The position numbers and the translations under genes are program-made. A stretch of 56,789 nucleotides of DNA from Halanaerobium saccharolyticum (GTDB taxonomy: Bacteria > Bacillota > Halanaerobiia > Halanaerobiales > Halanaerobiaceae). This document shows positions 33,106-35,927 of this stretch, piece after piece. The DNA is taken from assembly GCF_003259895.1 (NCBI RefSeq), contig NZ_QLME01000021.1, positions 1-56,789 of the forward strand, in the 5' to 3' direction. The notes beneath the pieces are model-generated. The model had not been told where the DNA came from, searched no databases, and worked only from the letters and a program-made list of their open reading frames with translations. Within the stretch, counting starts at the first letter, position 1. Every line of letters starts with the position of its first letter.

Positions 33106-33693
33106 TTATTCAGCTAAATATTTATTTTTAATTTCTTTTCTGGCTTCAGCAGTCCACTTCTTAATAAATTCAGTTTTAGCCTCAGTATAACCATCTCGGT
33201 TATGCTTATATTCTTTTTTTAATTTCTCCTTTAGTTTTCCATATTTTTCTGCAATTTCAGGATGAGCAATTAAATAGTCCCTAAAATACAATTCATCCCA
33301 ATCACCTAAATAACGTAAATGAAGGTGAAAAACCCTGTCTGCGAATCCTTCTGGTGTGTATCCTTTATTAAAAACCAGGTCCAGTTCTTCGTCTTCTTGA
33401 TTTCTATGCATCAAAATCCAGCCTGTATTTTTAAGCCTACTTTCCACTTTTGAAAGCTCAGAGCTTCTGTTAATTTCAAGCAAAATATCAACCGTCGGTT
33501 TTGCCAGCAGTCCTGGGACTGCAGTACTACCAATATGATTGATTCGGGCAATACTTTTAGCTGACAAAATCTCCTTCAGCCTTTCTTTTTCTTCTAAATA
33601 CCAATTTTTATATTCAGGCTTATGTTCCTTTAAAATAATCGGAAAAAGCTGCCACAGCTCCTCCAGTGACATCTCAGAAAGTGATTTGCTCAT
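33106..33693 (-). CDS. GrpB family protein (nucleotidyltransferase fold)
   Basis: 195 residues of the GrpB/UPF0157 family, which has a nucleotidyltransferase-like fold: HIGSTAVPGLLAKPTVDILLEI carries the GS motif and the D-x-D-like acidic pair region. Biochemical role not established in general. GGAGG lies 6-7 bases before the ATG. Stands alone between phoP and the repeat element. Confidence 0.85.
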   Translation of the reverse strand: MSKSLSEMSLEELWQLFPIILKEHKPEYKNWYLEEKERLKEILSAKSIARINHIGSTAVPGLLAKPTVDILLEINRSSELSKVESRLKNTGWILMHRNQEDEELDLVFNKGYTPEGFADRVFHLHLRYLGDWDELYFRDYLIAHPEIAEKYGKLKEKLKKEYKHNRDGYTEAKTEFIKKWTAEARKEIKNKYLAE

Positions 33694-33711
33694 TGAAAAC
33701 CTCCTTAAACC

Positions 33712-34060
33712 ATCATTAAAACAATTAATTAAACTTAAGATACCTACTCATATTTCAAGTATCCCCAAAGAAAAGGATTTACTTAAATTGAGACTTTAGT
33801 CGGAATAGCCTTGATTAGATTTTATTGTTTTATCATTAAAACAATTCGTTAAACTAAGATACATGCACAAACTCCAAGTATTCTTCAGAGAAAAGATTTA
33901 TCTGATTTAGTACTTCAGACGGAATAGCTTTGATTATAATTTATTTGGAAATAGACTGCCTATTGTCTGACCAAAGTGAGTTAAGGCAGTCCCAAATAAA
34001 TTATATATGAAAAGCGTTAATGGAGTCTGTGGCTAAATCAGATAATCCTTATCTCCATTA
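33712..34060. repeat. Decayed repeat element: two direct copies plus an inverted copy around a hairpin
   Basis: This 440-base gene-free gap holds a composite repeat. Copy A (33712-33817) and copy B (33832-33936) are direct, about 120 bases apart, both starting ATCATTAAAACAATT and ending GGAATAGC-(C/T)TTGATTA. Copy C (33992-34060) is an inverted relative of 33878-33948 (shared CTAAATCAGATAA and CCAAATAAATTATA). B and C flank a hairpin: ATAATTTATTTGG (33936-33948) and GACTGCCT (33954-33961) pair with AGGCAGTC (33984-33991) and CCAAATAAATTAT (33992-34004). On the minus strand copy B reads KAIPSEVLNQINLFSEEYLE before a stop, so the unit may descend from a small gene. Confidence 0.65.
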
Positions 34061-34064
34061 TAGC

Positions 34065-34095
34065 AAAAAGAGCCTCCTATAAAAAGGAGGCTCCA
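34065..34095 (-). terminator. Terminator of the Na/Pi cotransporter gene
   Basis: Hairpin GAGCCTCC / GGAGGCTC (34070-34093) with TTTTTGC following on the minus strand. Confidence 0.88.
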
Positions 34096-34133
34096 CCCAA
34101 ATAAAGCTATTTAAATGTTAAATCTTTGTAAAC

Positions 34134-35834
34134 TTATACTACATCCACTTCCTGAACATCTCTACCTGTACCATCATCTTCATAAATTTCAATTACACTA
34201 TAAGCAATATCAGCCATTTGATCACTGATATGTTCGAGATCATCAAGAAGTTCTAAAAGTATTATACCTGAATTTGGATCATTGATACTTTTATCGGAAC
34301 TTTTAATTCTGCTGATACTTTCTTTTCTAAACTGAATCTGCATCTGGTCTAATTTTTCTTCTGCTTCTAAAATCTCAGCAGCAATTTCTAAATTATCAGT
34401 CTTAATTAACTCTATAGTTTTATCTAATACATTACAGACAATAGAATATACTTCCTGAATAGTGGACTGAGCATCACTTGAAAATTTAAGTTTGTTTTCA
34501 AGACGATTTTCAATTAATTCTGCAATATCATCAGCATCATCAGCAATGCTTTCAATATCATCAACAACTGCAAAATATTTATCTAAAGTTCTAATATCTA
34601 CATCATTTAATTGACCCTGTGGTATTTTCTGAATAAAGTGAAGTAATTCTTCTTCCATTTCATTAACTATATCTTCGTGTCTCCTTATTTTTTTAACTAC
34701 ATCTCCGTCTTTGTTCAAAAATCCCTCTACAGACTCACAAACCATATCCCGGGAAATTCCTCCCATTGCTACAATCTCCTTTTTAACCTGATCAATTGCA
34801 ACATAAGGAGTGCTTAACATTCTCTCATCAATAAAAGTAGTTCCTCTTTTTAAAGTCAAGTCTTCTCCTGGCAGCATTTTTTTAACTAAATAAACCATAA
34901 AACCTGTAAATGGCAGCCAGAGCATAGTATTTAAAATATTAAAAAAGGTATGTGTATTGGCCAGCAATCTCTCTTCGGAAGGATTAATCTGACCAAAAAA
35001 GCCGCTAATATCTAAAATAAAATTCTCAATAAATCCAGCAAAATCAGGAACTATATATAAAAACGCTATCATAATACTGGCACCCAGTACATTGAATAAA
35101 AAGTGGGCGGCAGCTGCTCTCTTAGCAGTTAAGTTGGCTCCAATAGCAGATAAAATTGCAGTAACAGTTGTACCAATGTTACTACCTAAAAGAATTGGGA
35201 TGGCAGCTTCGTAATGAATCGCTCCTGCTGTAACAAGACCTAATAAAATACCAAATGAAGCAGAACTACTCTGAACAGCAACTGTGACAACAATACCAGT
35301 TAATACACCTAAAATAGGATACTGGGCAAAACTTTCCATCCAGTTGACAAAAACAACTGAATCTTCTAAAGGAGCCATTGTATCTCCCATTGTTTCCAGC
35401 CCTAAAAATAATAAACCGAAACCAAGTAAAACCTGTCCAATATATTGAAACTTTTTGCTTTTAGAAAATAGATATGTAAAAGAACCAATTGCAATTGCAT
35501 GAAGAGCATAATCACCAAGCTTAAATGCAATTAACTGAGCAGTTACTGTAGTACCAATATTGGCACCCATAATAACTCCAACCGACTGGAACAGAGTCAT
35601 CAACCCTGCATTAACAAAACCTACAACCATAACTGTTGTAGCACTACTACTCTGGATAATTGCAGTAATTATTGTTCCAACTCCAACACCCATAATTGGT
35701 TTTGAGGTCATAGCAGCTAAAAAATGACGCAGTCTTTTACCGGCGGTTTTCTGTAAACCCTCACTCATCTGCTTCATACCATAAATAAAGATACCCAGAC
35801 CACCAAGTAAACTTATAGCCATATCAAATCCCAA
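34134..35834 (-). CDS. Na/phosphate cotransporter with C-terminal PhoU domain (NptA/YjbB type)
   Basis: 566 residues. The membrane half contains two inverted PNaS repeats, each with the QSSSATT / QSSSASF signature (about residues 50 and 185), and GANIGTTVTA / GSNIGTTVTA loops. The last roughly 200 residues are a cytoplasmic PhoU-like helical domain. It would couple sodium to phosphate movement. TTG at 35834 is preferred: GGGGAG lies 6 bases upstream, whereas the ATG at 35852 lies inside that site. Lies between phoPR/grpB and veg, forming a second phosphate system in the window. Confidence 0.88.
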   Translation of the reverse strand: MGFDMAISLLGGLGIFIYGMKQMSEGLQKTAGKRLRHFLAAMTSKPIMGVGVGTIITAIIQSSSATTVMVVGFVNAGLMTLFQSVGVIMGANIGTTVTAQLIAFKLGDYALHAIAIGSFTYLFSKSKKFQYIGQVLLGFGLLFLGLETMGDTMAPLEDSVVFVNWMESFAQYPILGVLTGIVVTVAVQSSSASFGILLGLVTAGAIHYEAAIPILLGSNIGTTVTAILSAIGANLTAKRAAAAHFLFNVLGASIMIAFLYIVPDFAGFIENFILDISGFFGQINPSEERLLANTHTFFNILNTMLWLPFTGFMVYLVKKMLPGEDLTLKRGTTFIDERMLSTPYVAIDQVKKEIVAMGGISRDMVCESVEGFLNKDGDVVKKIRRHEDIVNEMEEELLHFIQKIPQGQLNDVDIRTLDKYFAVVDDIESIADDADDIAELIENRLENKLKFSSDAQSTIQEVYSIVCNVLDKTIELIKTDNLEIAAEILEAEEKLDQMQIQFRKESISRIKSSDKSINDPNSGIILLELLDDLEHISDQMADIAYSVIEIYEDDGTGRDVQEVDVV

Positions 35835-35927
35835 GCCTATCTCCCCTTTCATATTATTAGATTATCCTGTTATTATCTTATTTTGTTATAATAATCAAAT
35901 CATATTTTTTTAATAAAAAATAGCAGG

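Follow-up and report, generated by a model that had tools for sequence, protein, structure and literature searches.

Gene context and architecture of the repeat

The window, that is the whole 56,789-nucleotide stretch of Halanaerobium saccharolyticum DNA that was analysed, contains a composite repeat between the genes for a Na/Pi cotransporter and a GrpB family protein (Table 1). We took the minus strand as the canonical orientation of the full element; the plus strand is the better-folding one. As the preliminary description had proposed, two direct copies, A and B, lie about 120 bases apart: the direct repeat D1 (33736-33826 / 33855-33945) has 71% identity at a spacing of 119 nt, and D4 (33712-33735 / 33832-33855) has 92% identity. 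The proposal that an inverted copy, C, folds with B was also borne out, the outer ends (33888-33910 / 34033-34055) being 87% complementary and the inner repeat (33935-33948 / 33992-34005) 100% complementary over 14 nt. The core had been described as a 21-bp stem; the hairpin is there, but its measured length is 14 + 8 = 22 bp, interrupted by the bulge. The apical 8 bp pair GACTGCCT (33954-33961) with AGGCAGTC (33984-33991), and outer stems extending to 33888 and 34055 enclose the inner stem. By eye, half copies resembling copy A were also seen at three further loci (L010, L011, and L012).

Table 1. Coordinates of the element, its parts, and its surroundings in the window
Feature	Position	Strand	Remarks
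GrpB family gene	33106..33693	-	PF04229, E 4.8e-46; downstream in the canonical direction
Copy A	33712..33826	-	isolated 3' half copy (arm + tail), partner arm absent; repeats D1/D4
Copy B	33832..33945	-	hairpin 3' arm + tail; repeats D1/D4
Full palindromic element	33888..34055	-	copies C + B face to face; 168-nt imperfect hairpin
Match to covariance model R1	33888..34056		173.9 bits; basis for the full element; R1 was built from 12 copies, this one included
Inner stem (33935-33948/33992-34005) + apical stem (33954-33961/33984-33991)	33935..34005	.	one-sided 5-nt bulge
Apical loop motif	33964..33982	-	1 mismatch to AACTCNCTNCGNTCARACA
Copy C	33992..34055	-	hairpin 5' arm; inverted repeats I1 + I3
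TATAAT, possible extended -10 (TGCTATAAT)	34057..34062	-	between terminator and element; read from the sequence
Intrinsic terminator of the Na/Pi cotransporter gene	34069..34094	-	directly adjoins the element
Na/Pi cotransporter with PhoU domain	34134..35852	-	PF02690, E 1.2e-70, PF01895; upstream in the canonical direction

Folded as RNA, both strands of the segment 33880-34065 did far better than shuffled sequences: none of 200 shuffles equalled the minus strand (-57.8 kcal/mol, z -8.2) and none of 200 the plus strand (-64.5 kcal/mol, z -7.6). Coding capacity was poor. No ORF of at least 60 aa overlaps 33888-34055, and none of the three minus-strand frames of copy A is open throughout. The minus-strand reading KAIPSEVLNQINLFSEEYLE noticed earlier in copy B is present inside a short stop-to-stop stretch, but it is no evidence for a gene. 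A coding remnant (the KAIPSEV reading) was thus rejected, as it is short, sits on a conserved nucleotide motif, and comes with no ORF of at least 60 aa. The idea of a decayed small gene array is likewise unsupported, because changes in the family of related hairpins described below obey base pairing and the open reading falls on that conserved motif.

Scanning window positions 33400-34400 and 21 further loci (7 + 14) against Rfam identified no element at the gathering score. The scan of the 14 loci returned two hits, T-box and Flavo-1, both away from the hairpins. Two sub-threshold matches touched hairpins, DdR12 on the window (E 0.94) and mir-3136 on L090 (E 0.3), and both appear to be fortuitous hairpin matches. 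The window copy, used alone as query, had no match among plasmids and phages, and we recognised no description of this hairpin element in the open-access literature (PubMed Central).

The same locus in the genus

A genus search found matches to the element in 11/12 genomes; in 7/12, counting that of the window, a copy separates the cotransporter gene from GrpB. At that locus, the stem sequences vary between genomes yet pair with themselves. Two genomes (G002 and G004) have an empty site behind the cotransporter, lacking both the element and the GrpB gene. In these two, a -10-like box and then a response-regulator gene come after the cotransporter terminator, with TGATACAAT at the equivalent position before the regulator gene. 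Given this arrangement, the element and the GrpB gene of the window probably lie in the leader of a regulator-kinase operon. The TATAAT at 34057-34062 may then be the -10 of the promoter of a GrpB-regulator-kinase operon, although a sigma-70 scan did not call it. In G001, GrpB and hairpin are absent from the cotransporter locus, but the first nucleotides of the element seem to be retained.

Comparing the window locus with its nearest ortholog (G005) revealed 8 variable stem pairs, and two other close pairs of genomes had 9 and 4; compensatory changes were 0 in all three comparisons. The apical mini-hairpin of the window copy is decayed as well, with A and G at both pairing positions and TG replacing CG. 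This absence of compensatory change, together with a loop off consensus at pairing positions, indicated that the window copy is probably decaying and no longer maintained, whereas the family at large is probably constrained.

The hairpin belongs to a dispersed, covarying family

BLAST against the host genome returned the element itself and weak pieces, nothing else, because the stems of dispersed copies do not align. Twelve copies, including that of the window, were aligned to give 33 consensus pairs and a covariance model, R1. Two-sided changes occurred at 23/33 pairs. R1 found matches in 18/61 related genomes, with 6 copies in the host, 14 in G025 (same order), and 13 and 4 in G038 and G050 (same class). 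Hence, the dispersed copies that the preliminary description had suggested looking for in Halanaerobiales do exist, and the element is not unique to its locus. Across 65 R1 matches (61 distinct rows), 30/33 pairs had changed on both sides, a count biased towards the model since the matches were aligned to it; in the 61 rows, 93.8% of cells were paired, as compared with 37-48% when partners were slid and 66.6% when they were shuffled. Covariation, which the preliminary description had proposed as a check on the hairpin, holds across the family. An element confined to one site and free of covariation, the picture that would have argued against the initial proposals, does not describe this family, even though the window locus taken alone has no compensatory change. 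The dispersed copies carry no gene inside.

A second host locus, behind a gene that we call YchF-like from its sequence rather than from a family search, allowed changes to be followed in situ. Among 12 genomes, 4 have a full element there, 2 have tandem half-unit relics, and 6 have none, absence being judged within 430 nt. Compensatory change had taken place in 2/8 variable pairs, and in one of them the intermediate was A.C, a wobble when read on the complement strand. Incidentally, we noticed runs of half-hairpin units (CTACTTCGATTGAATTCA...) behind the YchF-like gene in G007, G001, and G003 (L301, L302, and L303), suggesting repeated rearrangement at one site.

Copies in relatives bear marks of movement

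In G025, a complete genome, and in G027, both of the same order as the host, copies have inverted ends, the left TATATAAGCGTCTTGCATAAT-like and the right TATATAAGGCTCTTTCATAAT-like in reverse complement. We searched 19 loci and located both ends in 16 (15 from G025 and 1 from G027). Target duplications of 4 bp flanked 12/16 copies, as compared with 1.9 expected from swapped flanks, and duplications of 3 bp or 5 bp matched in 2/16 and 1/16 only. The four misses include L062, which has a 5-base match, and L067, which the pattern read incorrectly. Matching duplications also occur in L065 and L066, which contain a 55-nt internal insert, and in L093 and L104, which are internally deleted and have no apical loop. 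The latter pair raises the possibility that the hairpin is dispensable for movement: either the ends are enough for it, or the deletions arose afterwards. In the window copy, neither terminal inverted repeats nor target duplications could be defined.

The inverted ends and 4-bp duplications in relatives indicated that copies have moved as MITE-like elements. With the dispersal of copies and their presence or absence within the genus, this makes a MITE-like element the best supported of the natures proposed at the outset. Bacterial MITEs such as ERIC, Correia/NEMIS, and RUP share with the present family a short, gene-less body with inverted ends, target duplications, many intergenic copies, and long hairpins. 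In contrast to them, the stems here covary and differ by lineage, the loop and bulge recur across phyla, wobbles are tolerated mainly on one strand, and a partner transposase was not found in G025, the genome searched. The MITE with TATAG ends of Ca. Thiomargarita nelsonii is also a long hairpin dispersed mainly between genes, and its parental IS was not found by the authors (PMC4853749); unlike our element, it is found partly within a group I intron.

The search for an autonomous partner with the same ends in G025 combined a left-end search, the reading of 9 loci, and ORF and Pfam analysis, and none was found. The left end gave 21 matches at no more than 2 mismatches. Those outside known copies were L101/L119, where a reverse transcriptase region of group II intron-like type adjoins, and L108, L110, and L111, where the adjoining genes have no transposase Pfam match. 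A partner with more divergent ends, or one residing in another strain, may exist. At L119, the reverse transcriptase region beside the hairpin left end is apparently split into several ORFs.

Some copies hold extra modules. A second insert of ~55 nt, AACCTTAAACTG...GGGAGTGCCCYAGG, occurs in L052 (second copy), L065, L066, L083, L089, and L105, at the same internal-loop site CTGC^TCCG in G000, G025, G038, and G022, which represent three families; it may have inserted secondarily in a site-specific manner, or it may be an optional module of the structure. By eye, another module, GACGCACCGCTGTGC...CCATGCGT, splits the apical loop in one G001 and one G025 copy (L070 and L105), and a piece of it lies before GrpB in G007 and G010 (L011/L012). 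Pattern matches to such modules (GGGAGTGCCCYAGG and others) lie beside few of 199 loops.

We considered whether the copies might be a REP/REPIN family moved by a RAYT (Y1) transposase. Like REP/REPINs, the hairpins are palindromic, intergenic, dispersed, and sometimes arranged as inverted pairs (L325, L327, and L328); Y1 transposase genes exist in 42/61 relatives, and G025 combines one Y1 match in a long ORF with many copies. However, none of 13 RAYT-like loci, of which 10 came from genomes matched by R1, contained the loop motif, and their own inverted repeats are of a different kind. G009 has a copy of the element but no Y1 match at E 1e-5, and the Y1 matches of G038 and G050 read as IS200-like or as fragments. 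The sizes differ too, REPs being 20-40 bp and tagged by GTAG and CGTC (PMC3733652), as against ~170 nt or more here. A RAYT link was thus rejected on the Y1 census of 61 genomes and the 13 RAYT-like loci, and we regard it as very improbable indeed.

The apical loop recurs across phyla

The 19-base apical-loop pattern matched at least 118 stretches, as compared with ~8 expected (an estimate at equal base frequencies for 257 Gb, both strands). Among the 80 titles listed were Sphingobacterium, Flavobacterium, Myroides, Marivirga, Tepidibacter, Clostridium, Lachnospiraceae, Methylophaga, Arcobacter, Helicobacteraceae, Thermodesulfovibrionia, and Saccharibacteria. Viral contigs gave no exact match to one loop pattern. 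The pattern leaves the stem unconstrained, yet among the matches listed 82/114 had at least 8/9 pairs beside the loop, against 3.5% when arms were swapped between copies. By phylum, and again among the matches listed, this was the case for 16/18 in Bacteroidota, 17/33 in Bacillota, 12/14 in Campylobacterota, 6/6 in Nitrospirota, 5/5 in Pseudomonadota, 1/1 in Saccharibacteria, and 25/37 of the untitled. Six phyla therefore hold well-paired copies, Saccharibacteria through a single one.

The bulge recurs as well: the first bulge of the 3' arm starts 9-11 nt from the loop in 118/170 copies. When three loop positions were freed, ten genomes yielded 139 matches (41 of them in Tepidibacter mesophilus), and the reversed-pattern control yielded 5. 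Two of the freed positions formed a Watson-Crick pair in 69/75 entered loops, where 30.8 were expected and the maximum in 20,000 shuffles was 45. We infer that the multi-phylum hairpins and those of the window's class share descent, rather than having converged on one loop.

Two sets of copies deserve a description of their own. One Campylobacterales contig (L185 and L196) has five near-identical hairpins, and a BrnT toxin gene and a repeated ORF separate them; it also contains a bAvd-like ORF and a reverse transcriptase ORF (L196:3871-4933, PF00078), whose motif GLPIGNLTSQ is typical of diversity-generating retroelements. In Methylophaga and Tepidibacter, hairpins of different types form inverted pairs ~145-420 nt apart (L324, L325, L327, and L328), which resemble large REP doublets.

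One strand tolerates wobbles and folds better

Stems were scored symmetrically, and isolated mismatches were counted in the canonical orientation, i.e., on the minus strand of the window. In 60 copies of the window's class, A.C mismatches outnumbered G.U by 20 to 4 (28 other), and in 114 multi-phylum copies, among the matches listed, by 113 to 40 (133 other). A canonical A.C mismatch is a G.U wobble on the opposite strand, which is the plus strand in the window. The bias persisted when related copies were clustered with the loop masked (19 v 4 clusters with 13 ties; 17 v 1 with 9 ties at another setting). Unmasked clustering merged 122/170 copies through their common loop and gave 11 v 2. In line with this count, the complement strand folded better with RNA energies in 57/60 copies of the window's class and 106/114 multi-phylum copies among the matches listed, and with DNA energies in 143/170. 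As a positive control, terminator stems, for which the RNA strand is known, deviated in the right direction, but weakly (G.U 18 v A.C 11). The asymmetry may be due in part to mutation bias or shared descent, and in the multi-phylum set, mismatches that are neither A.C nor G.U (133) occur as often as A.C.

The loop sequence of the complement strand is C-GNA-G, with a covarying pair outside and G/A and A/G neighbours. GNA triloops closed by C-G are very stable DNA mini-hairpins. This resemblance favours, without proving it, single-stranded DNA as the recognised form.

These data bear on whether the element is a structured RNA, the third nature suggested by the preliminary description. The strong covariation of the family is what supports that view; the wobble-tolerant plus strand is antisense to both flanking genes. 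In its fullest form, it would hold that the plus strand, antisense to the upstream gene, is transcribed into a structured non-coding RNA whose short gene cassettes have spread and are maintained by selection. The paired changes at 23/33 and 30/33 pairs, the confinement of wobbles mainly to one strand, and the two pairs with compensatory change in situ behind the YchF-like gene, one of which passed via A.C, speak for it. However, no element reached the Rfam gathering score at the loci scanned, the promoter scan called no plus-strand promoter just before the element, close relatives differ by its presence or absence, compensatory change was 0 at the window locus, and the free N of GNA would suit DNA mini-hairpins better. 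We judge such an RNA family unlikely.

We also considered an attC-like recombination site folded from a single strand. Integron attC sites are imperfect hairpins of variable stem sequence with one-sided unpaired bases, folded from the bottom strand, in fixed orientation behind a gene, and in all these respects the element is similar. The five near-identical copies of L185 and L196 form two stretches, in each of which they are spaced ~1 kb and share one orientation; this would fit a recombination site with the adjacent small genes as cassettes. But what recurs in the present element is the apical loop and the bulge. Moreover, an integron integrase (TIGR02249) scored above cut-off in 1/12 genomes with the element, so that the integron link was rejected; the other 11, like 13/14 control genomes, had only weaker tyrosine-recombinase matches. 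By eye, the neighbours in the window's class look like ordinary chromosomal genes. An attC-like site is thus very improbable.

Placement relative to genes

Among 50 multi-phylum copies with a left gene no more than 200 nt away, that gene points towards the element in 42, and right neighbours split 15 to 15. In the multi-phylum set, the strand that tolerates wobbles is mostly antisense to a nearby upstream gene. The window's class shows a weak bias in upstream-gene orientation (22 v 12, counting genes within 150 nt), and neighbours are co-directional in 35/41 copies having both. Position alone is no proof, since perfect inverted repeats are generally enriched behind bacterial genes (PMC13155455). 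Terminator-like sites lay in the 80-330-nt flank of 19/104 copies left sense, 11 left antisense, 6 right sense, and 10 right antisense, so that insertion behind terminators is a trend only; by eye, several Tepidibacter copies and the window copy directly follow a terminator.

Such a placement could also mean that the minus strand acts as an mRNA hairpin at a 3' end or in a leader, where it would stabilise, terminate, or attenuate the transcript. The 42/50 orientation count points that way, and use of the 34057-34062 box would place the window element in the GrpB operon leader. In contrast, the mRNA-sense strand is the one holding the A.C mismatches and the one folding worse in 57/60 and, among the matches listed, 106/114 copies, and the cotransporter of the window already has its own terminator. 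We find an mRNA function quite unlikely.

A mobile hairpin and its proposed recognition as a folded strand

Throughout the family, the stems drift by paired changes, but the copies remain bulged hairpins with similar loops. The reading that we favour, and hold to be fairly likely, is that the window harbours a worn copy of a short, gene-less mobile element, a long palindrome whose mechanism involves both its ends and its folded strand. The element would have inserted directly after the cotransporter terminator, before the GrpB gene, and a rearrangement would have left the half copy A. A transposase acting in trans may move the ends. In addition, some protein would recognise the wobble-tolerant strand (plus in the window) in its folded state, as single-stranded DNA or RNA, possibly by way of the C-GNA-G mini-hairpin at its apex and the bulge that lies on one side roughly one helical turn further down. 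This mechanism goes beyond end-dependent movement, and the family seems wider and more constrained than ordinary MITEs.

A broader proposal, which we put forward tentatively and consider rather doubtful, is that these hairpins constitute one superfamily of mobile elements in at least six phyla. Its identity would reside, rather than in its ends, in the folded strand (C-GNA-G loop, bulge one turn below, and stems rewritten in each lineage), recognised by an enzyme as single-stranded DNA and set in fixed orientation behind genes. If so, the placement behind genes would make the gene-antisense strand the one that folds.

In our view of the field, short palindromic repeats are usually regarded as local, species-specific litter. 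Families such as this one escape BLAST because their stems do not align. The recurring loop and bulge, the private self-complementary stems, and the tolerance mainly on one strand point instead to recognition of a folded single strand, in which the contributions of loop, bulge, and strand are separable by binding and mobility assays.
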